Origin: Beroe forskalii
Lineage: Eukaryota; Ctenophora; Nuda; Beroida; Beroidae
Length of the DNA: 64,000 nucleotides
NCBI GenBank assembly: GCA_011033025.1
Contig: WFMF01000056.1
Location: 62,001-126,000, forward strand
Direction: 5' to 3'
The position numbers and the translations under genes are program-made. Numbering within the stretch: position 1 is the first letter of the stretch; each line of letters begins with the position of its first letter. Positions 14,715-57,500 of the stretch are shown here, one piece after another. The notes beneath the pieces were generated by a model. It ran no database searches. It had not been told where the DNA came from and saw only the letters and a list, made by a program, of their open reading frames with translations.

Positions 14715-14918
14715 CTGATCACGTGCCACCTGCCCCAAGTTGAAGTAAGAGGAGTCCGGGTGGGCAATGTAAAGCCCGCAGACACTCGGCGGCGGCTCCA
14801 TAGCATAGGAGTCAGTCAGTGTGGCCCCAATGTTCCCGGCAACATCCAGGAGACTCCAGAGGGAATCTTTGAGGGTGTGGTCAGGAAGAGAGGGGTAGCC
14901 GGGGGCGGGCCTAGTTCC
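14715..14918 (-). CDS. MTR: Methionine synthase, penultimate exon (AdoMet-binding reactivation domain)
   Basis: The 204-bp, 68-codon exon begins GTRPAPGYPSLPDHTL and continues through SLLDVAGNIGATLTDSYAM, SVCGLYIAHPDSSYFNLGQV and ARDQ. It aligns residue for residue in pattern with human and E. coli enzymes (GIRPAPGYP..PDHTEK, LTESLAM, SGLYF, KYFAVG, KDQ). The RPAPGYP loop contacts AdoMet in the E. coli enzyme. The right boundary is acceptor CTCTCTTTCAG|GGAACT, the left boundary is GATCAG|GTGGGT. The first 48 coding bases and the acceptor are also the unit of the adjacent array, so the exact acceptor used cannot be fixed. Exons for the rest of the enzyme would lie to the right, beyond the array and gap; none is recognised. 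Confidence 0.93.
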
Positions 14919-17900
14919 CTGAAAGAGAGGGTGTGGTCAGGAAGAGAGGGGTAGCCGGGGGCGGGCCTAGTTCCCTGAAAGAGAGGGTGTGGTCAGGAAG
15001 AGAGGGGTAGCCGGGGGCGGGCCTAGTTCCCTGAAAGAGAGGGTGTGGTCAGGAAGAGAGGGGAGCCAGGGGCGGGCCTAGTTCCCTGAAAGAGAGGGTG
15101 TGGTCAGGAAGAGAGGGGTAGCCGGGGGCGGGCCTAGTTCCCTGAAAGAGAGGGTGTGGTCAGGAAGAGAGGGGTAGCCGGGGGCGGGCCTAGTTCCCTG
15201 AAAGAGAGGGTGTGGTCAGGAAGAGAGGGGTAGCCGGGGGCGGGCCTAGTTCCCTGAAAGAGAGGGTGTGGTCAGGAAGAGAGGGGTAGCCGGGGCGAGC
15301 CTAGTTCCCTGGAAAGAGGGGCGAGAGGGGTAGCCGGGGCGGGCCTAGTTCCCTGAAAGAGAGGGTGTGGTGGTCAAGAGAGGGGTAGCCGGGGGGCGGG
15401 CCTAGTTCCCTGAAAGAGAGGGTGGTCAGGAAGAGAGGGGTAGCTGGGGCGGGCCTAGTTCCCTGAAAGAGAGGGTGGTCAGGAAGAGAGGGTAGCCGGG
15501 GCGGGCCTAGTTCCCTGAAAGAGAGGGTGGTCAGGAAGAGAGGGGTAGCCGGGGGCGGGCCTAGTTCCCTGAAAGAGAGGGTGTGGTCAGGAAGAGAGGG
15601 GTAGCCGGGGCGGGCCTAGTTCCCTGAAAGAGAGGGTGGTCAGGAAGAGAGGGGTAGCCGGGGGCGGGCCTAGTTCCCTGAAAGAGAGGGTGTGGTCAGG
15701 AAGAGAGGGGTAGCCGGGGGCGGGCCTAGTTCCCTGAAAGAGAGGGTGTGGTCAGGAAGAGAGGGGTAGCCGGGGGCGGGCCTAGTTCCCTGAAAGAGAG
15801 GGTGTGGTCAGGAAGAGAGGGGTAGCCGGGGGCGGGTTTAGTTCCCTGAAAGAGAGGGTGTGGTCAGGAAGAGAGGGGTAGCTGGGGGCGGGCCTAGTTC
15901 CCTGAAAGAGAGGGTGTGGTCAGGAAGAGAGGGGTAGCCGGGGCGGGCCTAGTTCCTGAAAGAGAGGTGTGGTCAGGAAGAGAGGGGTAGCCGGGGGCGG
16001 GCCTAGTTCCCTGAAAGAGAGGGTGTGGTCAGGAAGAGAGGGGTAGCCGGGGGCGGGCCTAGTTCCCTGAAAGAGAGGGTGTGGTCAGGAAGAGAGGGGT
16101 AGCCGGGGGCGGGCCTAGTTCCCTGAAAGAGAGGGTGTGGTCAGGAAGAGAGGGGTAGCCGGGGCGTAGTTTGCCCTGAAAGAGAGGGTCAGAAGAGGGT
16201 AGCCGGGGCAGGAAAGAGGGTGTGGTCGGGGGCGGGGCGAGCCTAGTTCCCTGAAAGAGAGGGTGTGGTCAGGAAGAGAGGGGTAGCCGGGGGCGGGCCT
16301 AGTTCCCTGAAAGAGAGGGTGTGGTCAGGAAGAGAGGGGTAGCCGGGCCTAGTTCCCTGAAAGAGAGGGTGTGGTCAGGAAGAGAGGGGTAGCTGGGGCG
16401 GGCCCTTTCCCCTGAAAGAGAGGGTGTGGTCAGGAAGAGAGGGGTAGCCGGGGGCGGGCCTAGTTCCCCTGAAAGAGAGGGTGTGGTCAGGAAGAGAGGT
16501 AGCCGGGGGGCGGGCCTAGTTCCCTGAAAGAGAGGGTGTGGTCAGGAAGAGGGGGTAGCCGGGGCGGGCCTAAGTTCCCCGAAAGAGAGGGTGTGGTCAG
16601 GAAGAGAGGGGTAGCCGGGGGCGGGCCCTAGTTCCCTGAAAAAGAGGGTGTGGTCAGGAAGAGAGGGTAGCCAGGGCGGGTTCGCTCCCTGAAAGGAGAG
16701 GGTGTGGTCAGGAAGAGGGCAGCCGGGGGGGCGGGCCTAGTTCGAAAGAGAGGGTGGTCAGGAAAAGAGGGGTAGGGGGCGGGCCTGGTTCCCTGAAAGA
16801 GAGGGTGTGGTCAGGAAGAGAGGGTAGCCAGGGGGCAGCCTAGTTCCCCTGAAAGAGAGGGTGTGGTCAGGAAGAGAGGGGTAGCCAGGGGCGGGCCTAG
16901 TTCCCTGAAAGAGAGGTGGTCAGGAAGAGAGGGGGCAGCCGGGGGCAGGCCTAGTTCCCCTGAAAGAGAGGGTGGTCAGGAAGAGAGGGGCAGCCGGGGC
17001 GGGGCCTAGTTCCCTGAAAGAGAGGGTGGGTCAGGAAGAGGGGCAGCCAGGGGCGGGCCTAGTTCCCCGCTGGAAAGAGAGGGTGGTCAGGAAGAGAGGG
17101 GCAGCCGGGGGCGGGCCTAGTTCCCTGAAAGAGAGGTGTGGTCAGGAAGAGAGGGTAGCCGGGGCGGGCCTAGTTCCCTGAAGAGAGGGTGTGTGGTCCA
17201 GGAAGAGAGGGTATCAGGGGCGGAGCCTAGTTCCTATGAAAAGAGGGTGGTCAGGAAGAGGTAGCCGGGGCGGGCCTAGTTCCCCTCGAAAGAGAGGGTG
17301 TGGTCAGGAAGACGGGGCATGAGGCAGGCCTAGTTCCCTGAAAGAGAGGGTGGTCAGGAAGAGGGGTGGGCCGGGGCGGCCTAGTTCCCTGAAAGAGAGG
17401 GTGGTCAGAAGAGAGGGGTAGCCGGGGCGGCCTAGCTCTGGTCAAGGAAGTCAGAAGAGAGGCAGCCAGGGGCGGCCTAGTTCCCCGAAAGAGGGCGTGG
17501 TCAGGAAGAGAGGGGCAGCCAGGGGCGGGCCTAGTTCCCTGAAAGAGAGGGTGTGGTCAGGAAGAGGGGTAGCCGGGGCGGGCCTAGTTCCTGAAAGAGG
17601 GTGTGGTCAGGAAGAGAGGGTAGCCGGGGCGGGCCTAGTTCCCCTGAAAGAGAGGGTGTGGTCAGGAAAGAGAGGGGTAGTAGAGGGGCCGGGGCGGCCT
17701 ATTCCCCGAAAGAGAGGGTGTGGTCAGGAAGAGAGGGTAGCCGGGGGCGGCCTAGTTCCCTGAAAGAGGGGTGTGGTCAGAAAGAGGGCAGCCGGGGGCA
17801 GGAAGAAAGAGGGGTGGTCAGAAGAGAGGGGCAGCCGGGGGCGGGGCCCAGTTCCCCTGAAAGAGGGGGTGTGGTAGGAAGAGAGGGGTAGCCAGGGGCG

Positions 17901-20512
17901 GGCCTGGTTCCTGAAAGAGAGGACGTGGTCAGGAAGAGGGCAGCCGGGCGGGCCCAGTTCCCCTGGGGCAGGCCTAGGGCGGGCCTAATCCCTGAAAGAG
18001 AGGGTGTGGTCAGGAAGAGGGGTAGCCGGGGCGGGCCTAGTTCCCTGAAAGAGAGGTGTGGTCAGGAAGAGAGGGGCAGCCAGGGGCGGGCCTAGTTCCC
18101 TGAAAGAGGGTGTGGGTCAGGAAGAGGGGGTAGCCGGGGGCGGGCCTAGTTCCCTGAAAGAGAGGGGTGTGGTCAGGAAGAGGGGGTAGCCGGGGCGGGC
18201 CTAGTTCCCTGAAAAGAGGGTGTGGTCAGGAAAGAGGGTAGCCGGGGCGGCCCGCCCTATTGGTCAGAAAGGGGTGTGGTCAGGAAGAGAGGGGCAGCCA
18301 GGGGCGGGCCTGGTTCCCTGAAAGAGAGGGTGTGGTCAGGAAGAGAGGGGCAGCTGGGGCGGGCCTAGTTCCCTGAAAGAGGGTGTGGTCAGGAAGAGAG
18401 GGGCCGGGGGGCGGGCCTAGTTCCCTGAAAGAGAGGGTGTGGTCAGGAAGAGGGTAGCCGGGGGTGGGCCTAGTTCCCAGGAAGAGGGCAGGGGGGCGGT
18501 CAGAAGAGAGGGTGGCCAGGGGGGGCAGCCGGGGGCGGTTCCCCCCTGAAAGAGGGGGTGGTCAGGAAGAGAGGGGTGGGCCGGGGGCGGGCCTAGTTCC
18601 CCGAAAGAGGGTGGTCAGGAAGAGGGGGTGGCCAGGGGCGGGCCTAGTTCCCTGAAAGAGAGGGTGTGGTCAGGGAAGAGAGTGGCAGGCAGGCCTAGTT
18701 CCCTGAAAGAGGGTGTGGTCAGAAGAGAGGGGCAGCCAGGGGCAGGGCTAGTTCCCCTGAAAGAGAGGGTGGGTCAGGAAGAGGGGGGTAGCGGGGCGGG
18801 CCTAGTTCCCCTGAAAGAGGGTGTGGTCAGGAAGAGGGGTAGTCGGGGCGGGCCTAGTTCCCTGAAAAGAGGGTGTGGTCAGGAAGAGAGGGGTAGCCGG
18901 GGCGGGCCTAGTTCCCTGAAAGAGAGGTGTGGTCAGGAAGAGAGGGGCCAGGGGCAGGCCTGGTTCCCTGAAAGAGAGGGTGTGGTCAGGAAGAGAGGGC
19001 AGCCATGGGGGGCAGCCTAGTTCCCTGAAAAGAGGGTGTCAGGAAGAAGGTACCCAGGGGCAGCCTAGTTCCCTAAAAAGAGGTTGGTCGGGAAGAGGGG
19101 GGTAGCCAGGGAGCCTAGTTCCCAAAAGAGTGTGGTAAAGGAAGGGGTTAAGGGCGGGCCTGGTTCCTGAAAGAGGGTGAGTCAGGAAGAGGGTGCCAGG
19201 AGAAGCTTTTCCCCGAAAGGGTGTTTTCAGGAAGAGGGACGGGGGACAGTTCTGAAAGAGGTGGTCAGGAAGAAAAATAGCCAGGGGCGGGCCCTGTAAG
19301 GGGTGGTCAAGGAAGAAGGTGAGGGGAAACTATTTCCCTGAAAAAGGGTGGTCAGGAAGAGGGTAGCAGGGCAGACCTGTTCAAAGAAGGGGGTGGGAGA
19401 GAGGAGCCAGACCTGGTTCAAAAGGGTTGGTCGGGAAGAGAGCAGGGCGGGCCAGTTAAAAGAAAGGAGGAGAAGCGGAGCAGGGGGCCCTAGTTCGAAA
19501 GAGGTGTAGCCCAGGAAGAGAGGTGCGGGGGCAGCCTGTTCCTGAAAAGAGGTGGGTCAGAAGGAGGGTAGCCAGGGGCAGACCTAGTTCCCTGAAAAGA
19601 GGTGGTCAGGAAGGGGGGCAGGGCCTAGTTCTGAAAGAGAAGGTAGTCAGGAAGAGAGGGGACCAGGGGCAGACCTAGTTCCTGAAAAAGGGTGGTCAGG
19701 AAGAGGGGTAGCCAGGGCAGACTGGCCCCCTAAAAGGATAGGTCCAGGAAGAGAGGATGCCAGGGGGGCCTGTTCCCTGAAAAGAGAGGTTAATGAATCG
19801 GAGGGGGTAAGAGGGGGGTTTTCCCTGAAAAAAGGGTTTTTGGGGGAAGAGGGCCGGGGGCAGCAGTTAAAAGAGGGTGGAAGGGGGGGGTGGGGGGGAA
19901 AAAGGGGGGGGTGGGAAAAGGGGTGGGGGGGGGAAAGGAAAGGGGGGGGTCGGAAAGGGGGTTTGGGGGGCCTATTCGAAGAGGTTTGGGGGAAAGGGGG
20001 CCGGGGAGGGCCCCTAAAAGGGGGGTTTCGGGAAGGGGGGCCGGGGGGGGTTTCCCAAAAGGGAGGGGGGTGGGGGGGAAAGGAGGGAGGGGGGGCAGGG
20101 GGGGAAAGGAAGGGGGAGAGGGAAACGGCGGGGGGGGGGGGGGGTGGGGCGGGTGGGTTCCCTGGGGGGTGTTGGGAAGAGGGGGTAGAAGGGGGGGCCA
20201 GTTCAAAAAGGGGGTATGGAAGGGGGAAGGGTGGGGGGCCCCCCGCCCAAGGGGAAAAGGGTGGGGGGAGGGGGGAGCCGGGCGCAGCCCGAAAGGGGGG
20301 TGGCGGAAGAGGGCGGGGCGGCCTTTTTAAAGAGGGGTGGGTCAGGAAGGGGGGTGGGGGGAAAAACCTTTTTTAAAAAGGAGGGTGGTCGGGAAGAGGG
20401 GTGCGGGGGGAAAATTCTTTGGGGGGGGAAAGGGAAGGGGGGGGGGCGCCTATTCCCTAAAGGGGGTGGGGAAAGGGAAGGGGTGCCGGGGGGGGGGGGG
20501 GGGGGGGGGCCC
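14871..20512. repeat. 56-bp tandem array derived from the MTR intron/exon junction
   Basis: The unit on the minus strand is CTCTTTCAG (intron end) followed by GGAACTAGGCCCGCCCCC and GGCTACCCCTCTCTTCCTGA, ending ACCACACCCTC. It equals the acceptor plus the codons for GTRPAPGYPSLPDHTL of the exon at 14715-14918. There are roughly 85 to 90 copies. The first copies (to about 16100) are nearly identical; errors and indels increase from about 18460, and after 19790 the sequence degenerates to G-rich homopolymers up to the gap. Long open frames in the G-rich part are artefacts. Confidence 0.95.
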
Positions 20513-20612
20513 NNNNNNNNNNNNNNNNNNNNNNNNNNNNNNNNNNNNNNNNNNNNNNNNNNNNNNNNNNNNNNNNNNNNNNNNNNNNNNNNNNNNNNNN
20601 NNNNNNNNNNNN
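20513..20612. other. Scaffold gap of 100 N
   Basis: Exactly 100 undetermined bases, preceded by low-quality poly-G sequence. The true length is unknown. Confidence 0.99.
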
Positions 20613-20620
20613 TGGCTTAC

Positions 20621-21215: not shown

Positions 21216-21219
21216 CTGC

Positions 21220-21811: not shown

Positions 21812-23145
21812 GTCCCCTATTTCCCATATTAACCCCTATTATCTCCATGATAACCTCTATTTTCGCAATGGTAACCCCTATTATCTCCATGGTAACCCCT
21901 ATTATCTCCATGGTAACCCCTATTATCCCCATGGTAACCCCTATTATCCCCATGGTAATCCCTATTATCTCCATGGTAACCCCTATTATCTCCATGGTAA
22001 CCCCTATTATCCCCATGGTAATCCCTATTATCCCCATGGTAATCCCTATTATCCCCATGGTAATCCCTATTATCTCCATGGTAACCCCTATTATCCCATT
22101 GTGGTAACCCCTCCCCATGGTAACCCCATTATCCTCCCTATTATCCCCCTTGGTAACCCCCTATTATCCCTTGGTAACTTTATCATCCATTGTAACGCCT
22201 TTTATCTCCATTGTAACGCCTTTTATCCCCATGGTAATCCCTATTATCTCCATGGTAACCCCTATTATCCCCATGGTAACCCCTATTTATCCCATGGTAA
22301 CCCCTATTATCCCCTTGGTAACCCCTATCATCTCCATTGTAACGCCTTTTATCCCCATGGTAATCCCTATTATCTCCATGGTAACCCCTATTATCCCCAT
22401 GGTAACCCCTATTTATCCCATGGTAACCCCTATTATCCCCTTGGTAAGCCCTATCATCTCCATTGTAACGCCTTTTATCCCCATGATAATCCCTATTATC
22501 TCCATGGTAACCCCTATTATCCCCATGGTAATCCCTATTATCCCCATGGTAACCCCTATTATCTCCATGGTAACCCCTATTATCCCCATGGTAATCCCTA
22601 TTATCCCCATGGTAACCCCTATTATCTCCATGGTAACCCCTATTATCCCCATGGTAACCTCTATTATCTCCATGGTAACCCCTATTAATCCCATGGTAAC
22701 CACTATTATCTCCATGGTAACCCCTATTAATCCCATGGTAACCACTATTATCTCCATGGTAACCCCTATTATCCCCATGGTAACCCCTATTATCCCCATG
22801 GTAACCCCTATTATCTCCATGGTAACCCCTATTATCCCCATGGTAACCGCTATTATCCCCATGGTAACCCCTATTATCTCCATGGTAACCCCTATTAATC
22901 CCATGGTAACCACTATTATCTCCATGGTAACCCCTATTAATCCCATGGTAACCACTATTATTCTTATGGTAACCACCATTAATCCATGGTAACCACTATT
23001 ATCTCCATGGTAACCCCTAATATTCCCATAGTAACCCCTATAAGTATATCCCTGGATATCCTATTATTTCCATGTTAACCCCTATTATCTCCATGGTTAA
23101 CCCCTTTCATCTCCATTGTAAGTGGTAACCCCTATTATCTCCCTG
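21812..23145. repeat. 21-bp tandem array, block A (ATGGTAACCCCTATTATC type)
   Basis: Unit CCATGGTAACCCCTATTATCT with frequent CCCC/TCC and AAT/ATT variants, about 60 copies. Since 21 is a multiple of three, several frames stay open on both strands; these are not genes. A higher-order block of several units containing ATTGTAACGCC recurs near 22190, 22330 and 22460. Confidence 0.93.
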
Positions 23146-23185
23146 GTAACCAACATTATCACCATGGTTACTCCTAATATCCCAT

Positions 23186-24284
23186 GGTAACCCCTGGTTC
23201 TCTCCCTGGTTCTCTCCCTGGTTCTCTCCCTGGTTCTCTCCCTGGTAACACATGGTTCTTTCCCTGGTAACCCCTGGTTCTCTCCCTGGTAACCCCTGGT
23301 TTTCTCCCTGGTAACACCTGGTTGTCTCCCTGGTAACACCTGGTTCTCTCCCTGGTAACCCCTGGTTCTCTCCCTGGTAACACCTGGTTCTCTCCCTGGT
23401 AACCCCTGGTTCTCTCCCTGGTAACCCTGGTTCTCTCCCTGGTAACCCCTGGTTCTCTCCCTGGTAACCCCTGGTTCTCCCCCTGGTAACCCCTGGTTCT
23501 CTCCCTGGTAACCCCTGGTTCTCTCCCTGGTAACCCCTGGTTCTCTCCCTGGTAACCCCTGGTTCTCTCCCTGGTAACCCCTGGTTCTCTCCCTGGTAAC
23601 CCCTGGTTCTCTCCCTGGTAACCCCTGGTTCTCCCCTGGTAACCCCTGGTTCTCTCCCTGGTAACCCCTGGTTCTCTCCCTGGTAACCCCTGGTTCTCCC
23701 CCTGGTAACACCTGGTTCTCTCCCTGGTAACCCCTGGTTCTCTCCCTGGTAACACCTGGTTCTCTCCCTGGTAACCCCTGGTTCTCTCCCTGGTAACCCC
23801 TGGTTCTCCCCTGGTAACCCCTGGTTCTCTCCCTGGTAACCCCTGGTTCTCCCTGGTAACCCCTGGTTCTCTCCCTGGTAACACCTGGTTCTCTCCCTGG
23901 TAACCCCTGGTTCTCTCCCTGGTAACCACCGGTTCTCTCCCTGGTAACCCCTGGTTCTCCCCCCGGTAACCCTGGTTCTCTCCCTGGTAACCCCTGGTTC
24001 TCTCCCTGGTAACCCCTGGTTCTCTCCCTGGTAACCCCTGGTTCTCTCCCTGGTAACCTGGTTCTCTCCTGGTAACCCCTGGTTTCTCCCTGGTAACCCC
24101 TGGTTCTCTCCCTGGTAACCCTGGTTCTCCCTGGTAACCCCTGGTTCTCTCCCTGGTAACCCCTGGTTCTCCCCCTGGTAACCCCTGGTTCTCTCCCTGG
24201 TAACCCCTGGTTCTCCCCCTGGTAACCCCTGGTTATCTCCCTGGTAACCCCTGGTTCTCCCCCTGGTAACCCCTGGTTCTCCTC
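23186..24284. repeat. 21-bp tandem array, block B (CTGGTAACCCCTGGTTCTC type)
   Basis: Unit CCTGGTAACCCCTGGTTCTCT, about 52 copies. It shares TGGTAACCCCT and period with block A, so the two are related. The right edge merges into the acceptor of the next ZP-gene exon: unit GGTTCTCTCCCTGG versus acceptor GGTTCTCCTCCAG at 24275-24287. It therefore forms the 3' end of an intron. Confidence 0.93.
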
Positions 24285-24413: not shown

Positions 24414-27400
24414 GTTAGTAGCTAGGAACCCGGCAAGGGTACGCCTGTCTCCTTTCTGTTCGGTGATCAGCAGAGTAACAGCACTCTCTTGCTGGCTGAG
24501 TGCTGTTTAACGATTTTTTGACTGTTCTAACAGAATCAATTATTGACTTCATATCAAATTTGGTGGAGCTATAATACTGGTTCATTAATTTTATTCGTTG
24601 ATAGTAAAAGCAGGAACCAACCTGAAACCACCCGAACCCATCTGAAACCACCCGAACCCATCTGAAACCACCCGAACCCACAACCCAACTCTAACCCAGT
24701 TAGGGTTATGGTTAGGGTTAGGGTTAGGGTAGGTTCGGATGGGTCCATTTCATAAGGTCCCTTTCATTAGTTTTGGGGGATTTTAAGAAATTAAACCACA
24801 AGTTGAGGTACGTTACCCGAGTTCGTAGACCTGTTCTAGACAGGAGCTCAAAGAGCTATTGCTTCAACAATTTACAATACTATCTGGAAAAATGAAGTAA
24901 CTGCAAATTTTGTCTTTTGAAGTTTATGAGATATGGGTACCAAAATTTTCAACTCGTTGAGCTCTACAAGATGAGCTAGGACATTTGAATGGGAAATGCT
25001 CCTGAAAAAACTTTTACAGGAAGTAACTGCCATTTTTGAGAACAGTTTATGTTATGAAGGTCATGCTTCTTCCAGATAATGGCTGGATAGCTCGGCAAGC
25101 TTTCTTAATTTCTTGACAGGCGACAGAGTGAGCCTCTACGCTTACCCGACTCCCGAGCTATCAGAGTTGCTCGAGCTACAGCTCCTGTCAGTGCATCTCT
25201 AATATCACGTGCATTAGCAAGGTATAATGTTATTCGAGCAATTGGCCGGGTAATACCTCCAACTATCACCCAGCTATTGCTCGAGCAATAGCTGGGCCAA
25301 GCAAAAAACCTCACTCTAGAAGGCTTGCTCGAGCAATAGCTCCTCAAAGTTCCGTGTCTAGAACTATCCTTGCAGTATCGGTGATGTGCGGGGAAAAGAT
25401 CAATATCCGGATCAGCTACAGTCCAGAAACTAACTTCGTTCCAACCTTTACTGCGCAAGGTATGCGTTGAAACCTTTACTGCGCAAGGTATGTGTTGAAA
25501 ACGACCGGCACCATTTTTCACTAACTCCGGTTTCGTCTCTGTTTTCCAGACTTTGAAAGTCGGGTTCGTGCCCACTTTTACTGCACAAGGTATGAGGAGA
25601 CAAGACAATCTCTGACAATCATATTTCACTTGAAAACAATCTTCAGCTTTGCTGTCTCTTGCTTTTGCCTTTTAGAACTGTACCATTTGCTATGACATTT
25701 GAAGATGCCTGTCCCCAGATCACTCTTGTAAAGCTGACGGTTCCCCGCCCGTCCTCAGCCTGGAATACAACCCCAAGAAGTGCGGCACTAGAAGGGAGAA
25801 GGTCAAGGACGCCAAGTACGCTTTCAAGAACAGGGTTAGTGGCACTACTGTATATCGTCACATTTCATCGGGTCAAAATCCTCTTTCCTTTTTGGACAGA
25901 ATTTTTCTATTGACGAGTTCGATCAAGACCTATTGACTTAATACCATTCTCATTTCTTTATCGCATCCCCTCCACTTCATAATTGAGTATTCGACTCGCT
26001 TCCTATTCGGGGTTCAGGGATGAAACTTATCTCAACTCAAGTCAGCTCGATGCCATCTTACAACCCCTCAGATCTATGTGCGGAGTGCAGACCTCTCGTA
26101 CAGTGAGATAGCAGCAATCGAGTGCCCACCCTCTCGGAGGAGATGGAATACGGTGGTCAGGTAATGTTTCTAATGTTGTAAGCTCTCTTGGTGGTCAGGT
26201 AATGTTTCTAATGTTGTAAGCTCTCTTGGTGGTCAGGTAATGTTTCTAATGTTGTAAGCTCTCTTGGTGGTCAGGTAATGTTTCTAATGTTGTAAGCTCT
26301 CTTGGTGGTCAGGTAATGTTTCTAATGTTGTAAGCTCTCTTGGTGGTCAGGTAATGTTTCTAATGTTGTAAGCTCTCTTGGTGGTCAGGTAATGTTTCTA
26401 ATGTTGTAAGCTCTCTTGGTGGTCAGGTAATGTTTCTAATGTTGTAAGCTCTCTTGGTGGTCAGGTAATGTTTCTAATGTTGTAAGCTCTCTTGGTGGTC
26501 AGGTAATGTTTCTAATGTTGTAAGCTCTCTTGGTGGTCAGGTAATGTTTCTAATGTTGTAAGCTCTCTTGGTGGTCAGGTAATGTTTCTAATGTTGTAAG
26601 CTCTCTTGGTGGTCAGGTAATGTTTCTAATGTTGTAAGCTCTCTTGGTGGTCAGGTAATGTTTCTAATGTTGTAAGCTCTCTTGGTGGTCAGGTAATGTT
26701 TCTAATGTTGTAAGCTCTCTTGGTGGTCAGGTAATGTTTCTAATGTTGTAAGCTCTCTTGGTGGTCAGGTAATGTTTCTAATGTTGTAAGCTCTCTTGGT
26801 GGTCAGGTAATGTTTCTAATGTTGTAAGCTCTCTTGGTGGTCAGGTAATGTTTCTAATGTTGTAAGCTCTCTTGGTGGTCAGGTAATGTTTCTAATGTTG
26901 TAAGCTCTCTTGGTGGTCAGGTAATGTTTCTAATGTTGTAAGCTCTCTTGGTGGTCAGGTAATGTTTCTAATGTTGTAAGCTCTCTTGGTGGTCAGGTAA
27001 TGTTTCTAATGTTGTAAGCTCTCTTGGTGGTCAGGTAATGTTTCTAATGTTGTAAGCTCTCTTGGTGGTCAGGTAATGTTTCTAATGTAAGCTCTCTTGG
27101 TGGTCAGGTAATGTTTCTAATGTTGTAAGCTCTCTTGGTGGTCAGGTAATGTTTCTAATGTTGTAAGCTCTCTTGGTGGTCAGGTAATGTTTCTAATGTT
27201 GTAAGCTCTCTTGGTGGTCAGGTAATGTTTCTAATGTTGTAAGCTCTCTTGGTGGTCAGGTAATGTTTCTAATGTTGTAAGCTCTCTTGGTGGTCAGGTA
27301 ATGTTTTCTAATGTTTAAGCTCTCTTGGTGGTCAGGTAATGTTTCTAATGTTGTAAGCTCTCTTGGTGGTCAGGTAATGTTTCTAATGTTGTAAGCTCTC

Positions 27401-30400
27401 TTGGTGGTCAGGTAATGTTTCTAATGTTGTAAGCTCTCTTGGTGGTCAGGTAATGTTTCTAATGTTGTAAGCTCTCTTGGTGGTCAGGTAATGTTTCTAA
27501 TGTTGTAAGCTCTCTTGGTGGTCAGGTAATGTTTCTAATGTTGTAAGCTCTCTTGGTGGTCAGGTAATGTTTCTAATGTTGTAAGCTCTCTTGGTGGTCA
27601 GGTAATGTTTCTAATGTTGTAAGCTCTCTTGGTGGTCAGGTAATGTTTCTAATGTTGTAAGCTCTCTTGTGGTGAATCAGGTAATGTTTCTAATGTTGTA
27701 AGCTCTCTCTTGGTGGTCAGGTAATGTTTCTAATGTTGTAAGCTCTCTTGGTGGTCAGGTAATGTTTCTAATGTTTGTAAGCTCTCTTGTTGGTCAGGTA
27801 ATGTTTCTAATGTTGTAAGCTCTCTTGGTGGTCAGGTAATGTTTCTAATGTTGTAAGCTCTCTTGGTGGTCAGGTAATGTTTCTAATGTTGTAAGCTCTC
27901 TTGGTGGTCAGGTAATGTTTCTAATGTTTAAGCTCTCTTGGTGGTCAGGTAATGTTTCTAATGTTGTAAGCTCTCTTGGTGGTCAGGTAATGTTTCTAAT
28001 GTTGTAAGCTCTCTTGGTGGTCAGGTAATGTTTCTAATGTTGTAAGCTCTCTTGGTGGTCAGGTAATGTTTCTAATGTTGTAAGCTCTCTTGGTGGTCAG
28101 GTAATGTTTCTAATGTTGTAAGCTCTCTTGGTGGTCAGGTAATGTTTCTAATGTTGTAAGCTCTCTTGGTGGTCAGGTAATGTTTCTAATGTTGTAAGCT
28201 CTCTTGGTGGTCAGGTAATGTTTCTAATGTTGTAAGCTCTCTTGGTGGTCAGGTAATGTTTCTAATGTTGTAAGCTCTCTTGGTGGTCAGGTAATGTTTC
28301 TAATGTTGTGTTTTGGTGGTCAGGTAATCTTTCTAATGTTGTAAGCTCTCTGGTGGTCAGGTAATGTTTCTAATGTTGTAAGCTCTCTCTTGGTGGTCAG
28401 GTAATGTTTCTAATGTTGTAAGCTCTCTTGGTGGTCAGGTAATGTTTCTAATGTTGTAAGCTCTCTTGGTGGTCAGGTAATGTTTCTAATGTTGTAAGCT
28501 CTCTTGGTGGTCAGGTAATGTTTCTAATGTTGTAAGCTCTCTTGGTGGTCAGGTAATGTTTCTAATGTTTCTAATGTTGTAATGTTGTAAGCTCTCTTGG
28601 TGGTCAGGTAATGTTTCTAATGTTGTAAGCTCTCTTGGTGGTCAGGTAATGTTTCTAAATGTTGTAAGCTCTCTTGGTGGTCAGGTAATGTTTCTAATGT
28701 TGTGCGCTCTCTTGGTGGTCAGGTAATGTTTCTAATGTGGTTAATGTTTCTAATGTTGTAAGCTCTCTTGGTGGTCAGGTAATGTTTCTAATGTTGTAAG
28801 CTCTCTTGGTGGTCAGGTAATGTTTCTAATGTTGTAAGCTCTCTTGGTGGTCAGGTAATGTTTCTAATGTTGTAAGCTCTCTTGGTGGTCAGGTAATGTT
28901 TCTAATGTTGTAAGCTCTTGGTGGTCAGGTAATGTTTCTAATGTTGTAAGCTCTCAGGTAATGTTTCTAATGTTGTAAGCTCTCTTGGTGGTCAGGTAAT
29001 GTTTCTAATGTTGTAAGCTCTCTTGGTGGTCAGGTAATGTTTCTAATGTTGTAAGCTCTCTTGGTGGTCAGGTAATGTTTCTAATGTTGTAAGCTCTCTT
29101 GCGTCAGGTAATGTTGTTTAAATGTTGTAAGGTAATGTTTCTAATCTCTTGGTGGTCAGGTAATGTTTCTAATGTTGTAAGCTCTCTTGGTGGTCAGGTA
29201 ATGTTTCTAATGTTGTAAGCTCTCTTGGTGGTCAGGTAATGTTTCTAATGTTGTAAGGTAATGTTTCTTGTCATGGTCAGGTAATGTTTCTAATGTTGTA
29301 AGCTCTCTTGGTGGTCAGGTAATGTTTCTAATGTTGTAAGCTCTCTCTTGGCATTGACCTCAAGGATAACAAGGTGAGATTAACGTACTGCTGAGATCAT
29401 TGACCTCAAGGATAACAAGGTGAGATTAACGTACTGCTGAGATCATTGACCTCAAGGATAACAAGGTGAGATTAACGTACTGCTGAGATCATTGACCTCA
29501 AGGATAACAAGGTGAGATTAACGTACTGCTGAGATCATTGACCTCAAGGATAACAAGGTGAGATTAACGTACTGCTGAGATCATTGACCTCAAGGATAAC
29601 AAGGTGAGATTAACGTACTGCTGAGATCATTGACCTCAAGGATAACAAGGTGAGATTACACGTATTAACGTACTGCTGAGATCATTGACCTCAAGGATAA
29701 CAAGGTGAGATTAACGTACTGCTGAGATCATTGACCTCAAGGATAACAAGGTGAGATTAACGTACTGCTGAGATCATTGACCTCAAGGATAACAAGGTGA
29801 GATTAACGTACTGCTGAGATCATTGACCTCAAGGATAACAAGGTGAGATTAACGTACTGCTGAGATCATTGACCTCAAGGATAACAAGGTGAGATTAACG
29901 TACTGCTGAGATCATTGACCTCAAGGATAACAAGGTGAGATTAACGTACTGCTGAGATCATTGACCTCAAAGATAACAAGGTGAGATTAACGTACTGCTG
30001 AGATCATTGACCTCAAGGATAACAAGGTGAGAGATTAACGTACTGCTGAGATCATTGACCTCAACGTACTCAAGGATAACAAGGTGAGATTAACGTACTG
30101 CTGAGATCATTGACCTCAACAAGGTGAGATTAACGTACTGCTGAGATCTTGATCAAGGATAACAAGGTGAGATTAACGTACTGCTGAGATCATTGACCTC
30201 AAGGATAACAAGGTGAGATTAACGTACTGCTGAGATCATGACCTCAAGATAACAAGGTGAGATTAACGTACTGCTGAGATCATTGACCCTCAAGGATAAC
30301 AAGGTGAGATTAACGTACTGCTGAGATCATTGACCTCAAGGATAACAAGGTGAGATTAACGTACTGCTGAGATCATTGACCTCAAGGATAACAAGGTGAG

Positions 30401-43198: not shown

Positions 43199-43212
43199 GT
43201 TGCCATAGCAAC
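43199..43212. promoter_or_regulatory. RFX X-box upstream of the RIIa-like gene
   Basis: GTTGCCATAGCAAC is a perfect match to the RFX consensus GTNRCC(0-3N)RGYAAC. It lies 415 bp upstream of the RIIa-like start codon. A weaker half-related GTTGCTATGGGTGACAAC follows at about 43222. RFX factors drive ciliary genes in animals, which fits the predicted product. Confidence 0.6.
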
Positions 43213-43598
43213 CTCACAACGGTTGCTATGGGTGACAACGATCAGACCTTTCTACTTAGAGGGTTGAGTAACTTGATCTAAGGGAGTCCATTGAACTTGA
43301 GCTGCAAGTCTTTAGGATGTTTTGAACAGCAAGATGTTCAAGATGGGAACTGTGAAATCCTTGATTCGTCTTGAATTTCATCGAATATATAATATAGTTG
43401 TCCTATATGAGTACAGGGTTGTCATTGACCAACTGTAACTAAGGTAGGTCTATAAAAAATAAGTAATTAATTAAGTAAGTAATTCGTTGAAATTTTCAAC
43501 TCTCCTCCTTAAATGTGAATAATAATTTGGCCCACTACAGACCTTTAATAATCGCTTAACCGTTATTTGAAACATGATCTACTCAATACTCATGCCTT

Positions 43599-44400
43599 TT
43601 CGGACATAATTATCACGGACGTTAATTTCACAGACCTTAAATTTCAGAGACCTTAAATTTATATTCACGCTTATTAAATCAAATTTAGAGCAAAAATTCG
43701 AAATTTTCGGCTCGATTATTTCCATTTTTCCTCGATTTGAATTTTTTAAAGTTGAAGATTTTTCAATCGTAAATTAATGATAAATTTCCATATCGCAGTT
43801 AGTGTTACCACGCATGAAAAATAAGTATAATTTCCTGAAGAATTTTATTATATGTGTCTCTAAAGAGATGAACTATGAAGTGAGAAAATTGGCGTCTGTA
43901 TCCTAGAAATTTTAAGACTAGGAAATACAGTGGACTTAAATTTCACGGACATAAGTAAAAAGTATCACGGACATTAGTATCACGGACATAATTTTCATGG
44001 ACGCTGAGGTGCTCAGCGTGACTCAGTGACTGTAATATCCGTGATAATTACCTTATCGGACATAATTATCACGGACATTACAGTCACGCTGAGCACCTTT
44101 CCGTGAAAATTTTGTCCGTGATTCTGATGTCCGTATTTTCAGGTCCGTGAAAATCAAGTCCAGCAAAATTCCTGACTTCATCTCCTTAAAGTTAAAAAGC
44201 AATTGAACGCACAAATGATAAAAATATTGACATAGAAACGTATTCAAATCGAGGAAGAAAATGCGAAAAATCTAGCCGAAAATTTCGAATGTAAGGCGAA
44301 GGGGTCAGACAACGTCTGACAAGAAATTTGAAATGGCATAATCAAGCGTGAATATTCATTAGTACGTGAAACTAAAGTCCAAAGGTCTAAAGACAAAGTC
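43599..44400. mobile_element. Large imperfect hairpin (foldback) element
   Basis: Long inverted arms: 43697-43745 (CGAAATTTTCGGCTCGATTA...CTCGATTTGAA) pairs with 44242-44289, and the centre 44005-44050 (AGGTGCTCAGCGTGAC...) pairs with 44063-44098. Multiple ATCACGGACATTA-type subrepeats sit in both arms. A TCAGACAACGTCTGACAA hairpin piece is inserted in the right arm near 44300. Non-coding. Confidence 0.75.
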
Positions 44401-44439
44401 CGTTAAACTTAAATTGATAATAAGGCGCATGCATACAAC

Positions 44440-44900
44440 AGCGGTCGATCGAATGGAATTGGTCGATCAATCAAGTTGAAGTTCATTTGATCGACCGACG
44501 AACGTTACGGGCGCCTTATGTCCAATAACAGATAAGGTATGTCCCGGTCCGTAAAGGTTAGCAATTTTCTGTAGAACGTTAATCGACGGGCGATGTCCGT
44601 CCCTTTCTTCTGACTTGTTGTTGGACAAAGTGACGTCCAAATGTGGAACGTTTCGCCGCGCGCGCGAGGGTAGGGTAACATCCTACGAAACGTTAATAAT
44701 TGATGGTTTGGAATTGCAGTTGCACAAGGGATCGTTCACATATTACGTTAAAAAAATCAATTTTTGGCCATTTTCAACCCCTCCCTCAAACGTAATCAAA
44801 TTCAAAGCCCAACCTCGACGGGTGCAAAGTGACGTCCAAATGTGGAACGTTGCGCCGCGCGCGCGAGGGTAGGGTAACATCCTACGAAGCCCTCAAGCCC
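44440..44900. repeat. Inverted GATCGACC segment and a 65-bp direct repeat pair
   Basis: GGTCGATC / GATCGACC inverted motifs occur at 44443-44500. The segment AAAGTGACGTCCAAATGTGG through AACATCCTACGA occurs at about 44625-44688 and again at 44825-44887, and inverted at 13664-13730. A short open frame here is not supported. Confidence 0.65.
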
Positions 44901-45202
44901 AACCCCCCTCTCTAGAGGAGAATATTACGTAATCATGGCTTAACCCCCCCCCACCTTTTTGAGTAGAAAATGAAGAAATTGGACAGTGCAAATACTTTAA
45001 AATTGATTATGTTCAATTTTGGAAAAAATTATGAACATATTGTAAGTTTTAAAAAATGGTGCTGAAAATCAAAAATGGTGCTTTTGAGTTGGTTTTTCTG
45101 AAGGCGAAGGGGTCAGACAACGTCTGACAAGGTTCCCCTAACCAGGGGTGTCGTAACCAGGGGTGCGCGTAACCAGGGTCCAGGTTAGGGCAAGGACGTG
45201 GG

Positions 45203-46624
45203 TACGGTGTACCAGAAGGATAAGTTATTGTACCTTTTTAAAAAAATAGAAATAACTTATCCTTCTGGGACACGTGTATCCCCCCAAAGGATAAGTTATT
45301 TTTTATTTTTAAAAGAAAAAAATAACTTATCCTTCTGGTACACGAGGGTGTCCCAAAAGGATAAGTTATTTTTATTTTTGAAAAGAAAAATAACTTATCC
45401 TTCTGGTATACACGAGTGTGTCCCAGAAGGATAAGTTATTTTCTATTTTTGAAAAGAAAAATAACTTATCCTTCTGGTACGAGTGTGTCCCAGAAGGATA
45501 AGTTATTTTCTATTTTTGAAAAGAAAAAATAACTTATCCTTATGGTACACGAGGTGTCCCAGAAGGATAAGTTATTTTTATTTTTTGAAAAGAAAAATAA
45601 CTTATCCTTCTGGGACACGAGTGTGTCCCAGAAGGATAAGTTATTTTATTTTACAATGTAGGTGTGTATGATATGCACACATCTTTCCTGGGGAAGCATG
45701 AAGCTGCACTGCGCAGGTGAGTCTGGCAGAAGTGTCATACCCGGTGGCAAATTGTCAGGCGTTGCCTGACCCCGGACCCTTGCTAAACATGTATATCCCT
45801 GCCTGGATCGAGCGGCGCGTACACCCTGCACCCATGCGGGCTTAGGAACAGGACTCTGCAAGTTGTGGCGCTAGGGGGTCAGTTCCTAAGCCCACATAGG
45901 TGTGTGTACGCGCCGAGCGCTTCCCTAAGGAAGCACGCCGCGTGAGCCAGACAGGGATATACGTGTTCAGTAAGGGGGTCAGGCAACACCTGCCTGACAA
46001 GTGTGCCACCAGGTATGACACTTCTGCCAGACTCGCCTGCGCAGTGCAGCTTCATGCTTCCCCAAGGAAAGATGTACGCATACACACACCTACATTGTAA
46101 AATAAAAATAACTTATCCTTCTGGGACACACTCGTGTCCCAGAAGGATAAGTTATTTTTCTTTTTCAAAAATAAAAATAACTTATCCTTCTGGGACACAC
46201 TCGTGTACCAGAAGGATAAGTTATTTTTTCTTTTTCAAAAATAGAAAATAATTTATCCTTCTGGGACACACTCGTGTCCCAGAAGGATAAGTTATTTTTC
46301 TTTTTCAAAAATAAAAATAACTTATCCTTCTGGGACACACTCGTGTACCAGAAGGATAAGTTATTTTTTCTTTTTCAAAATAGAAAATAACTTATCCTTT
46401 TTGGGACACACTCGTGTACCAGAAGGATAGTTATTTTTTCTTTTCAAAAATAAAAAATAACTTATCCTTTTGGGACACCCTCGTGTACCAGAAGGATAAG
46501 TTATTTTTTCTTTTTAAAAAATAAAAAATAACTTATCCTTTTGGGACACACTCGTGTCCCAGAAGGATAAGTTATTTCTATTTTTAAAAAAAGGTACAAT
46601 AACTTATCCTTCTGGTACACCGTA
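45203..46624. mobile_element. Foldback element, 1.42 kb, with 5-bp target site duplication
   Basis: The ends are perfect inverted repeats (TACGGTGTACCAGAAGGATA.../...TATCCTTCTGGTACACCGTA). GTGGG flanks both sides (45198-45202 and 46625-46629). Each arm has six to seven copies of a unit made of two palindromes, GGGACACACTCGTGTCCC and AAGGATAAGTTATTTTT... with its inverse, then a unique part of about 220 bp mirrored around about 45880. The inner part includes TTGCTAAACATGTATATCCC, shared with the GC-rich palindromic repeats. No transposase is seen; it is non-autonomous. Confidence 0.85.
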
Positions 46625-49774: not shown

Positions 49775-52700
49775 ATCCCACTCACCTACTAGCGAGGGGT
49801 ATAAACCCCTCCACCCGACCCACTCACCTACTAGCGAGGGGTATAAACCCCTCCACCCGACCCACTCACCTACTAGGGAGGGGTATAAACCCCTCCACAC
49901 GACCACTCACCTACTAGCGAGGGGTATAAACCCCTCCACCCGACCCACTCACCTACTAGCGAGGGGTATAAACCCCCCCCTCCCTACCCGACCAAACCCC
50001 ACTCACCCACCCTCCAGCGAGGGGCATAAACCCCTCCACCCGACCCACTCACCTACTAGCGAGGGGTATAAACCCCTCCACCCGACCCACTCTCACCTAC
50101 TAGCGAGGGGGGCATAAACCCCTCCACCCGACCCACTCACCTACCAGCGCGAGGGGTATAAACCCCTCCACCCGACCCACTCACCTACTAGCGAGGGGTA
50201 TAAACCCCTCCACCCGACCCACTCACCTACTAGCGAGGGGTATAAACCCTCCACCCGACCCACTCACCTACTAGCGAGGGGTATAAACCCCTCCACCCGA
50301 CCCACTCACATACTAGCGAGGGGTATAAACCCCTCCACCCGACCCACTCACCTACTAGCGAGGGGTATAAACCCTCCGACCCACTCACCTACTAGCGAGG
50401 GGTATAAACCCCCACCCGACCCACTCACCTACTAGCGGGGGTGCAAACCCCTCCACCCGACCCACTCACCTACTAGCGAGGGGTATAAACCCCTCCACCC
50501 ACCCACTCACCTACTAGCGAGGGGTATAAACCCCTCCACCCGACCCACTCACCTACTAGCGAGGGGTTATAAACCCCTCCACCCGACCCACTTACCTACT
50601 AGCGAGGGGTATAAACCCTCCACCCGACCCACTCACCTACTAGCGAGGGGTATAAACCCTCCACCCGACCCACTCACCTACTAGCGAGGGGTATAAACCC
50701 CTCCACCCGACCCACCTACTAGCGAGGGGTATAAACCCTCCACCCGACCCACTCACCTACTAGCGAGGGGTAAACCCCTCCACCCGACCCACTCACCTAC
50801 TAGCGAGGGGCATAAACCCTCCACCCGACCCCACTCACCTACTAGCGAGGGGTATAAACCCCTCCACCCGACCCACTCACCTACTAGTGAGGGGCCCCAC
50901 AACCCCACCACCCGACCCACTCACCTACTAGTGAGGGGTATAAACCCCTCCACCCGACCCACTCACCTACTAGCGAGGGGACATAAACCCCCTCCACCCA
51001 CTCACCTACTAGCGAGGGGTATAAACCCCCTCCACCCGACCCACTCACCTACTAGCGAGGGGTATAAACCCCTCCACCCACTCACCTACTATTACTAGCG
51101 AGGGGTATAAACCCCTCCACCCACTCACCTACTAGCGAGGGGTATAAACCCCTCCACCCGACCCACTCACCTACTAGCGAGGGGTATAAACCCCTCCACC
51201 CGACCCACTCACCTACTAGCGAGGGGTATAAACCCCTCCACCCGACCCACTCACCTACTAGCGAGGGGTATAAACCCCTCCACCCGACCCACTCACCTAC
51301 TAGCGAGGGGTATAAACCCCTCCACCCGACCCCTAGCGAGGGGTACTACCCTCACCTACCTAGCGAGGGGTATAAACCCCACCCGACCCACTCACCTACT
51401 AGCGAGGGGCATAAACCCCTCCACCCGACCCACTCACCTACTAGCGAGGGGTATAAACCCCTCCACCCACCCCACCCACCCGACCTACTAGCGAGGGGTA
51501 TAAACCCCCTCCACCCGACCCACTCACCTACTAGCGAGGGGTATAAACCCCTCCACCCGACCCACTCACCTACTAGCGAGGGGTATAAACCCCTCCACCC
51601 GACCCACACTTACTTACTAGCGAGGGGTATAAACCCTCCACCCGACCCACTCACCTACTAGCGAGGGGCATAAACCCCTCCACCCGACCCACTCACCTAC
51701 TAGCGAGGCATAAACCCCTCCACCCGACCCACTCACCTACTAGCGAGGGGTATAAACCCCTCCACCCGACCCACTCACCTACTAGCGAGGGGTATAAACC
51801 CCTCCACCCGACCACTCACCTACTAGCGAGGGGTATAAACCCCTCCACCCGACCCACTCACCTACTAGCGAGGGGTATAAACCCCTCCACCCACTCACCT
51901 ACTAGCGAGGGGTATAAACCCCTCCACCCGACCCACTCACCTACTAGCGAGGGGTATAAACCCCTCCACCCGACCCACTCACCTACTAGTGAGGTATAAA
52001 CCCTCCACCCGACCCACTCACCTACTAGCGGGGGTATAAACCCCTCCACCCGACCCACTCACCTACTAGCGAGGGGTATAAACCCTCCACCCGACCCACT
52101 CACCTACTAGCGAGGGGCATAAACCCCTCCACCCGACCCACTCTACTAGCGAGGGGTATAAAAACCTCCACCGGACCCACTCACCTACTAGTGAGGGGTA
52201 AACCCCTCCACCCAACCCACTCACCTACTAGCGGGGGGTATAAACCCTCCACCCGACCCACTCACCTACTAGCGAGGGGGTATAAACCCTCCACCCGACC
52301 ACTCTACCTACTAGCGAGGGGTATAAACCCCCCACCCCCGACCCACTCACCTACTAGCGAGGGGCATAAACCCCCTCCACCCACCCGACCCAGGCTAAAC
52401 CCCCACCCCTCACCTACTAGCGAGGGGCATAAACCCCCACCCGACCCACTCACCTACTAGCGAGGGGTATAAACCCTCCACCCGACCCACTACACCTACT
52501 AGCGAGGGGTCACCTACTAGCGAAACCCCCTCCACCCGACCACTCACCTACTAGCGAGGGGCATAAACCCCCCACCCGACCCACTCACCTACTAGCGAGG
52601 GCATAAACCCCTCCACCCACTCACACCACTGAGGGGTATAAACCCCTCCACCCGACCCACTCACCTACTAGCGAGGGGTATAAACCCCTCCACCCGACCC

Positions 52701-55475
52701 ACTCACCTACTAGCGAGGGGTATAAAAACCCTCCACCCGACCCACTCACCTACTAGCGAGGGGGTATAAACCCCTCCACCCGACCAACTCACCTACTAGC
52801 GAGGGGTATAAACCCCCTCCACCCACCCACCTACTAGTGAGGGGTATAAACCCCTCCACCCGACCCACTCACCTACTAGTGAGGGGTATAAACCCCTCCA
52901 CCCGACCCACTCACCTACTAGCAGGGGGTATAAACCCCTCCACCCGACCCACTCACCTACTAGCGAGGGGTATAAACCCCCTCCACCCGACCCACTCACC
53001 TACTAGCGAGGGGTATAAACCCCTCCACCCACTCACCTACTAGAGGGGTATAAACCCTCCACCCAACCCACTCACCTACTAGCGAGGGGCATAAAACCCC
53101 TCCATCCACCCACTCACCTACTAGCGAGGGGTATAAACCCCTCCACCCGACCCACTCACCTACTAGCGAGGGGTATAAACCCCTCCACCCACTCACCTAC
53201 TAGCGAGGGGTATAAACCCCTCCACCCAACCCACTCACCTACTAGTGAGGGGGTATAAACCCTCCACCCGACCCCACTCACCTACTAGCGGGGGTATAAA
53301 CCCTCCACCCGACCCACTCACCTACTAGCGGGGGTATAAACCCCCTCACCCGACCCCACTCACCTACTAGCGAGGGGTATAAACCCCTCCACCCGACCAT
53401 AAACCCCCTCCACCACTCACCTACTAGCGAGGGGTATAAACCCCTCCACCCGACCACTCACCTACTAGCGAGGGGTATAAACCCCTCCACCCGACCCACT
53501 CACCTACCTAGTGAGGGGCATAAACCCCTCCACCCGACCCACTCACCTACTAGCGAGGGGTATAAACCCCTCCACCCGACCCACTCACCTACTAGCGAGG
53601 GGTATAAACCCCTCCACCCGACCCACTCACCTACTAGTGAGGGGGTATAAACCCCTCCACCCGACCCACTCACCTACTAGCGAGGGGTATAAACCCCTCC
53701 ACCCGACCCACTCACCTACTAGCGAGGGGTATAAACCCCTCCACCCGACCCACTCACCTACTAGCGGGGGTATAAACCCCTCCACCCGACCCACTCACCT
53801 ACTAGCGAGGGGTATAAACCCCTCCACCCGACCCACTCACCTACTAGCGAGGGGTATAAACCCTCCACCCGACCCACTCACCTACTAGCGAGGGGTATAA
53901 ACCCTCCACCCGACCCACTCACCTACTAGCGAGGGGTATAAACCCCTCCACCCGACCCACTCACCTACTAGCGAGGGGTATAAACCCCTCCACCCGACCC
54001 ACTCACCTACTAGCGAGGGGGTATAAACCCCTCCACCCGACCCACTCACCTACTAGCGAGGGGTATAAACCCCTCCACCCGACCCACTCACCTACTAGCG
54101 AGGGGTATAAACCCCTCCACCCGACCCACTCACCTACTAGCAGGGGTATAAACCCCTCCACCCGACCCACTCACCTACTAGCCACCCGAACCCCTCCACC
54201 CGACCCACTCACCTACTAGCGAGGGGTATAAACCCCTCCACCCGACCCACTCACCTACTAGCGAGGGGTATAAACCCCTCCACCCGACCCACTCACCTAC
54301 TAGCGAGGGGTATAAACCCCTCCACCCGACCCACTCACCTACTAGCGAGGGGTATAAACCCCTCCACCCGACCCACTCACCTACTAGCGAGGGGTATAAA
54401 CCCCTCCACCCGACCCACTCACCTACTAGCGAGGGGTATAAACCCCCTCCACCCGACCCACTCACCTACTAGCGAGGGGTATAAACCCCTCCACCCGACC
54501 CACTCACCTACTAGCGAGGGGTATAAACCCCTCCACCCGACCCACTCACCTACTAGTGAGGGGTATAAACCCCTCCACCCGACCCACTCACCTACTAGCG
54601 AGGGGTATAAACCCCTCCACCCGACCCACTCACCTACTAGCGAGGGGTATAAACCCCTCCACCCGACCCACTCACCTACTAGCGAGGGGTATAAACCCCT
54701 CCACCCGACCCACTCACCTACTAGTGAGGGGTATAAACCCTCCACCCGACCCACTCACCTACTAGTGAGGGGTATAAACCCCTCCACCCGACCCACTCAC
54801 CTACTAGTGAGGGGTATAAACCCCTCCACCCGACCCACTCACCTACTAGTGAGGGGTATAAACCCCTCCACCCGACCCACTCACCTACTAGCGAGGGGTA
54901 TAAACCCCTCCACCCGACCCACTCACCTACTAGTGAGGGGGTATAAACCCTCCACCCGACCCACTCACCTACTAGCGAGGGGTATAAACCCCTCCACCCG
55001 ACCCACTCACCTACTAGCGAGGGGTATAAACCCCTCCACCCGACCCACTCACCTACTAGCGAGGGGGTATAAACCCCTCCACCCGACCCACTCACCTACT
55101 AGCGAGGGGTATAAACCCCTCCACCCGACCCACTCACCTACTAGCGAGGGGTATTCACCCTAGCAGGGGGTAAACCCCTCCACCCGACCCACTCACCTAC
55201 TAGCGAGGGGTATAAACCCTCCACCCGACCCACTCACCTACTAGCGAGGGGTATAAACCCCTCCACCCGACCCACTCACCTACTAGCGAGGGGTATAAAC
55301 CCCTCCACCCGACCACCTACTGCTTCAGGGGTATAAACCCTCCACCCGACCCACTCACCTACTAGCGGGGGTATAAACCCCCCACCCGACCCACTCACCT
55401 ACTAGCGAGGGGTAAAACCCCTCCACCCAATTACCTACCTCAGGGAGGGGTATAAGGGGTCACCTACTAGCGGGG
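49775..55475 (-). repeat. 42-bp tandem array with an AG|GTGAGT donor in every unit
   Basis: Minus-strand unit GGGTGGAGGGGTTTATACCC then CTCGCTAGTAG|GTGAGTGG and GTC, about 130 copies, with many small deletions in 50900-53500 and uniform stretches at 53900-55140. Each copy has a near-consensus splice donor on the strand of the host gene. The unit is 14 codons long, so frames such as GLYPSLVGEWVGWR stay open; not a gene. Confidence 0.97.
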
Positions 55476-55484
55476 GGTTTTAAG

Positions 55485-57108: not shown

Positions 57109-57109
57109 C

Positions 57110-57500
57110 TGACACCCTGGCTGACACCTAGTGACACCCTGGCTGACACCTGGTGACACCCTGGTGACCCTTGGCTGACACCTGGCTGACACCTGGTGAC
57201 ACCCTGGTGACACCCTGGTGACCCTTGGCTGACACCCTGGTGACCCTTGGCTGACACCCTGTTGACCCTTGGCTGACCCCTGAACCCTGGTGACACCCTG
57301 GTGACCCTTGGCTGACACCCTGGTGACCCTTGGCTGACACCCTGGTGACCCTTGGCTGACACCCTGGTGACACCCTGGTGACCCTTGGCTGACACCCTGG
57401 TGACACCCTGGTGACCCTTGGCTGACACCCTGGTGACCCTTGGCTGACACCCTGGTGACCCTTGGCTGACACCCTGACACCCTGGTGACCCTGGCTGACA
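57110..57500 (-). repeat. 22-23-bp array repeating an acceptor-like sequence
   Basis: Minus-strand unit CCAGGGTGTCAG plus CCAAGGGTCA, about 17 irregular copies. CCAGGGTGTCAG is identical to the acceptor of the 57082-57108 candidate exon. Confidence 0.85.

Follow-up and report, generated by a model that had tools for sequence, protein, structure and literature searches.

Several genes of the ctenophore Beroe forskalii carry tandem arrays in which the repeat unit itself spans an exon/intron boundary. These arrays are probably "mirages," that is, minisatellites whose founding tandem duplication straddled such a boundary. Units of this kind measure 56, 68, 42, and 40 bp in MTR, 68, 52, 39, and 38 bp in SLC6 genes, and 46 and 39 bp in a ZP-domain gene. 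Both boundary types were hit, with donors affected in the ZP and SLC6 genes and acceptors in the MTR, SLC6, and CCT genes. The window from which the analysis was developed is a 64,000-nucleotide stretch of the 216-Mb genome (C647:62001-126000), and all window coordinates are counted from its start. TRF recovered each of the nine arrays named in a first-pass annotation of this DNA (9/9), bearing out their existence. That annotation also held that the unit includes the splice signal in at least three unrelated genes. Exon sequence and junction could be confirmed within the unit for three arrays (56 bp in MTR, 46 bp and 39 bp in the ZP gene), but of the others the 38-bp array is donor-like only and the 22-, 28-, and 11-bp arrays abut acceptors.

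The MTR junction lies on the minus strand of the window. The penultimate exon (GTRPAPGYPSLPDHTLKDSLW...VARDQ; positions 14715 to 14918, edges read by eye) matched PF02965 (E value, 6.1e−28) as well as the E. coli and other MetH/MTR chains in the PDB. Its genome match was C647:76712-76924, and the best-scored candidates included 23 PF02965 matches, all on C647. The last exon (VEDYAARKGLSVADVEQALDSVLGYEPSSE stop; 14301 to 14392, minus strand) was read by eye and is identical to the end of the other copy of the gene. The 5′ end of the penultimate exon sits within the first unit of the 56-bp array (14871 to 19200; TRF and motif count). This unit, ctctctttcag|GGAACTAGG... (complete unit, ctctctttcag|GGAACTAGGCCCGCCCCCGGCTACCCCTCTCTTCCTGACCACACC), joins 11 bp of polypyrimidine tract and acceptor to 45 bp of exon start, the latter encoding GTRPAPGYPSLPDHT, a conserved activation-domain motif. 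The presence of conserved coding sequence in the unit identifies the MTR exon as the source of the array. The unit had been described as an acceptor plus 16 codons; the acceptor and exon start were correct, but 45 bp correspond to 15 codons. Acceptor motifs with at most one substitution numbered 65 within 14871 to 19200 (47 exact) and 70 when counted up to an N gap at 20513 to 20612, into which the array continues in decayed form (19201 to 20512, minus strand; read and motif count).

A second, nearly complete MTR gene with 26 introns lies approximately 29 kb to the left on C647, on the opposite strand. The two copies are 89 to 90% alike and in inverted order; since other pairs of second copies are mostly 87 to 97% alike (shorter pieces down to 76%), the MTR copies can be taken as haplotypes or recent duplicates. 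Inverted second copies ∼30 to 40 kb apart on one contig were observed at C647:46940-53459 versus window 14992-12057 and at C558:175419-178055 versus 214250-216894, and reflect either genuine inversions or a head-to-head joining of haplotypes during assembly. The penultimate-exon junction of the left gene carries 2.2 copies of the 56-bp unit, versus about 70 in the window copy. Here the 10-bp sequence CCACACCCTC occurs in the intron before the acceptor and again in the exon 56 bp on, the arrangement that slippage at such a short repeat would predict, and it is a likely slippage point. In this left gene, 5 of 19 arrays extend past an acceptor: 68 bp × 46, 42 bp × 13, 56 bp × 2, 40 bp × 2, and 25 bp × 2, the last overlapping its exon by just 5 bp. 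The protein assembled from the left gene is 75% identical to that of Mnemiopsis leidyi (full length; one gene) and 54 to 57% identical to those of other named animals among the best 120 of 8000 rows, the best Branchiostoma row reaching 57%.

Two introns of the left MTR gene, 9 and 22 (C647:34343-35038 and 42354-45658), raise the alternative that some introns are new, having originated within an exon through duplication or break repair, with the array as part of the newborn intron. They carry direct repeats of 15 and 14 bp, respectively, in register and exactly at the splice boundaries. Neither has a seamless GT donor, the best joins being GC-AG, although intron 9 also permits GT-AG with two extra residues and intron 22, judged by eye, does so only with more. 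They hold the two largest acceptor-crossing arrays of the gene (∼13 and ∼46 copies, respectively), and by protein comparison Mnemiopsis MTR has no extra residues at either place. In the accessible portion of a report on new introns in Daphnia, direct repeats of 4 to 12 bp were likewise found at both intron ends, with internal repeats in 55 of 90 (PMC4202315); the B. forskalii repeats are 14 to 15 bp, and the arrays are large. Judged by their sequence, introns 9 and 22 look like introns gained by duplication or break repair. The sign is missing from the other 24 MTR introns, whose boundaries share at most 7 bp, leaving duplicated sequence at both splice boundaries to 2 of the 26, and newborn introns are a possible rather than a probable contribution to the arrays.

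Arrays spanning donors were found in the ZP gene, on the plus strand of the window. The predicted exons IDLKDNK, TVYVQ..YYLLKNG, CRLDD..SDK, and VYIHC.. gave a single ZP-C domain across the predicted splices (E value, 3.2e−19, obtained with a protein typed with one inferred A). The unit of the 46-bp array (29352 to 32425; TRF and motif count) reads IDLKDNK|gtgaga, with 61 copies of AAGGTGAG, and that of the 39-bp array (32554 to 33708; TRF and motif count) reads DPYYLLKNG|gtacgt, with 21 copies of CGGGTACGT. The two units contain the ends of the first two ZP exons plus their donors, the second of these exons (TVYVQLESKV...DPYYLLK(N/T)G) occupying 32460 to 32577. As assembled, the exon-adjacent copy at the 39-bp array has four A's and a broken frame, and five A's alone keep the frame. 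Five A's were present in 19 of the 39-bp copies in the searched region and four in 3, and the four-A copy beside the array is either a consensus error or a frameshift. The next exons, CRLDDSLNFDEF...SDK (34086 to 34191) and VYIHCSVMLCNQQDPEC...FSSH (36340 to 36475, 3′ edge read by eye), flank a 28-bp array (34231 to 36333; TRF) that stops 6 bp short of the second of them, which is confirmed.

The first-pass annotation had assigned donors with exon ends to three ZP arrays (38, 46, and 39 bp), which stands for the 46- and 39-bp arrays, but the 38-bp array (26152 to 29346, plus strand; TRF and motif count) is donor-like only. It holds 82 copies of CAG|GTAATG on a candidate exon side; the preceding exon found no homology support, and there is no AG directly before the next exon. 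The proposed acceptor-side arrays (21 and 28 bp) do abut acceptors, but their units hold no junction-spanning exon sequence. The 21/22-bp array (21814 to 24281, plus strand; TRF) ends 6 bp before a possible exon at 24288, for which no protein relative was found, and its unit has no AG. A genome search for a second copy of the ZP gene returned four matches, of which three were the gene in the window and the fourth, on C268, was weak at 25% identity; a search for a protein relative of the ZP product found none.

Elsewhere in the window, an 11-bp array (38766 to 42388, minus strand; TRF) abuts the acceptor of an RIIa-like exon, as annotated, but the RIIa gene is unconfirmed, with an exon match below the cut-off (E value, 0.085). 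A 42-bp array (49777 to 55428, minus strand; TRF and donor score), attributed to a tail-anchor gene, has the strong donor-like site AG|GTGAGT in its unit, but no exon was found for it and the tail-anchor open reading frame (ORF) had no Pfam match. TRF also reported a 22-bp array at 57110, for which no exon was found either. In the stretch L017 (positions 2663 to 2764), a 29-bp array of 3.5 copies with the strong donor-like site AAG|GTATGC in its unit closes an open frame; lying beside trypsin and LDL-receptor exons, it is a possible further junction case. Pfam matched 3 of 10 ORFs from random stretches, too few for the junction count given below to be extended to them. Near-palindromic hairpin arrays with units of 69 to 71 bp (window 45207-45652, 46099-46620, and 63577-63761; also L014:204-710) adjoin a repeated, mobile-element-like segment, and a dispersed 15-bp array family, GACACCATCCAGATT, occurs at window 4943-5526 and at L014:1077-1688 and 8708-9313. 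A long open frame at window 351-2558 (minus strand) presumably belongs to an MBD5/6-like gene (MBD E value, 0.004, below the cut-off).

Junction arrays recurred outside the window in the other MTR copy, in SLC6 genes, and in a CCT gene. The SLC6 genes, whose exons match PF00209, were selected for their protein family at a stage when nothing was known of their arrays. They carry acceptor arrays of 68 bp × 5, 52 bp × 5, and 39 bp × 2 and a donor array of 38 bp × 6 (L033:195-433); one SLC6 junction has five unit copies in the first gene copy and two, as read from the sequence, in the second. CCT genes were sampled from C558 (one of two copies), C447, and C184, and in one of them the acceptor is present four times, with little exon sequence in the unit. 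A CCT-family intron differs between L041 (C447:577551-581800) and L042 (C184:224651-225350) by an insertion of ∼3.5 kb that has inverted ends and looks like a DNA transposon.

Junction crossings were counted in 70 introns with 37 arrays outside the window (MTR, L031 to L036, L041, and L043), and compared with a null model in which each array is one founder unit placed at random in array-collapsed introns, with crossing allowed. L037 to L040, which are fragments or second copies, were excluded, as was L042, the other copy of L041. SLC6 and CCT exon edges were the edges of profile matches, with those of L033 adjusted by reading the sequence. Nine of the 37 arrays crossed a junction versus 4.2 expected (P = 0.016), an excess over random placement that was smaller in a first version using TRF's larger periods (9 versus 5.4; P = 0.06). 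Without the MTR junction of the first-pass annotation, the count was 8/36 versus 3.95 (P = 0.034); MTR alone gave 5/19 versus 2.6 (P = 0.11) and the non-MTR genes 4/18 versus 1.55 (P = 0.056). Arrays of at least three copies crossed in 4/17 cases versus 2.1 expected (P = 0.15) and those of at least 150 bp in 4/9 versus 1.3 (P = 0.03). Two of the nine crossings overlap the exon by 5 and 8 bp only. The same script found no further arrays wholly within an exon.

An annotation-free comparison covered 55 arrays from the window and 14 fetched stretches. Donor-like units (score 7) made up 7/55 versus 7.1% of controls, with donors above controls at all five thresholds, and acceptor-like units (score 8) made up 3/55 versus 5.2%. 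Arrays inside the window account for five of the seven donor-like and two of the three acceptor-like units; for the arrays from elsewhere, counts made by eye (2/34 donor-like and 1/34 acceptor-like) gave no excess over controls. Arrays were found throughout introns and in random stretches. The idea that most arrays are junction born was rejected, given no excess of splice-like units in the 34 arrays outside the window. The claim that the arrays were born from junctions is thus weakly supported, by crossings at about twice the random-founder expectation but with no such excess of splice-like units. Tandem duplications occur widely, and copies that span a junction are tolerated and may be favored to a modest degree (about twofold); this modest excess hinges on a simple founder model.

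Whether junctions do more than tolerate duplication bears on a different explanation, in which junctions, and acceptors in particular, actively promote it, for example through the polypyrimidine tract, R-loops, or breaks during splicing. With an exon overlap of at least 15 bp, crossings numbered 7/37 versus 2.0 expected (P = 0.003), or 6/36 versus 1.8 without the junction annotated earlier (P = 0.007). All crossings in the test set were at acceptors (9:0; P = 0.004), and the ratio remained 9:1 (P = 0.02) after addition of the SLC6 donor array, which lies outside the counted introns. Adding the three ZP donor arrays as well reduced it to 9:4 (P = 0.27), and this argues against promotion, as do the small sample, the post hoc choice of split and threshold, and the absence of a splice-like unit excess in the 34 sampled arrays outside the window. 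Active promotion is therefore entertained here only tentatively. A third explanation, that the arrays are artefacts produced when noisy long reads were assembled, draws on the decayed consensus before both N gaps and on the inverted second copies on the same contigs. It also counts against the mirage reading that the long MTR array runs out into decayed sequence and then an N gap, and that the two MTR copies may be paralogues in inverted orientation or haplotypes placed wrongly. At window 19200-20512 and 60840-62477 the sequence ahead of each N gap degenerates into low-complexity stretches rich in G or A, probably because the consensus failed where contigs end within an array. An artefactual origin is nevertheless very improbable, as dozens of copies keep conserved coding motifs, one architecture recurs across several genes and contigs, and short array forms lie in clean sequence.

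The likely history of these arrays is as follows. The genome produces short tandem duplications at many places, and those within an exon would in most cases disrupt the protein and fail to persist. A duplication straddling a junction would instead keep a complete exon at the outer edge of the array, so that splicing could ignore the additional copies, and these could then grow by unequal exchange or slippage into a longer intron. Under exon definition, the exon-proximal copy would most likely be the one spliced, with errors removed, because it alone yields the normal short exon. Few unit lengths are divisible by three (42 and twice 39 bp, versus 68 twice, 56, 40, 25, 52, 38 twice, 46, and 31 bp), so splicing at an inner copy would in most cases disrupt the reading frame. 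The earlier suggestion that any copy can serve as the splice site is thus doubtful on sequence grounds. Its companion claims, that founder duplications crossed junctions, retained the splice signal, and let the intron absorb the growth, are supported and recur in MTR, SLC6, and CCT. We infer the copy that is spliced, the mechanism of expansion, and its neutrality. It is conceivable, though we would not expect it, that splice sites, above all acceptors, are a main birthplace of minisatellites in this ctenophore lineage. Introns would then grow, and some be born, by serial boundary duplication, with many genes holding tens of equivalent acceptors from which exon definition picks the last.

Arrays at splice sites have precedents. 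Human IFI6 (6-16) has a minisatellite of donor sites at an exon edge, like the donor-carrying arrays described here, although it concerns one gene and a 12-bp unit; no report of it was recognized among the literature matches listed. Intron gain by tandem duplication has reportedly occurred in potato RdRp. Introners (mobile intron families) look unlikely as a source, judging from the junction arrays seen in MTR and SLC6 genes, whose units differ from one another. Serial amplification at junctions had been thought undescribed, which is wrong, since the mirages of lancelets are of the same kind (PMC3087553, PMC3902484). In the accessible sections of those reports, the lancelet unit consists of an intron end plus exon start or an exon end plus donor, the same make-up and both boundary types seen in B. 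forskalii. Copy number differs between lancelet haplotypes (6 versus 3 in BflGb6); the region copies that differ here (MTR, 2 versus about 70; SLC6, 2 versus 5) may be either alleles or paralogues. Lancelet mirages are reported to give regular mRNA despite their repeated splice signals, with somatic instability in Adh3, and the authors considered that their own data suggest regular splicing and proposed that mirages seed new introns (PMC3087553, PMC3902484).

Judging from the same sections, lancelet mirages concern a chordate host and few genes, whereas those of this ctenophore are more frequent and extreme, with arrays that reach about 70 copies, one gene that has five crossings (∼2 copies in three of these), and crossings by 9/37 arrays in 70 introns of conserved genes, all read from DNA. 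In the Rogers model, as outlined in PMC3087553, introns are gained by tandem duplication of AGGT sites; there, as here, a splice-bearing duplication creates or extends an intron, but most arrays described here seem to extend existing introns, and only MTR introns 9 and 22 are candidates for gain. No junction arrays in ctenophores were found among the matches listed from the open literature, which excludes preprints and most subscription journals. The Hormiphora genome paper attributes 13% of the genome to repeats by TRF, and the word minisatellite does not appear in its main text. New here are the phylum, the scale, and the two MTR introns, whose boundary repeats of 14 to 15 bp look like traces of birth by such duplication.

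With near-identical splice sites in tandem, nature has set up an experiment that bears on the choice the spliceosome makes between equal sites, and on how introns lengthen or originate. A warning follows as well, for in genomes of this kind array junctions may be where gene models and assemblies break down. Mirages outside chordates, in several genes at once, would make a lancelet curiosity a more general and testable route of intron evolution.
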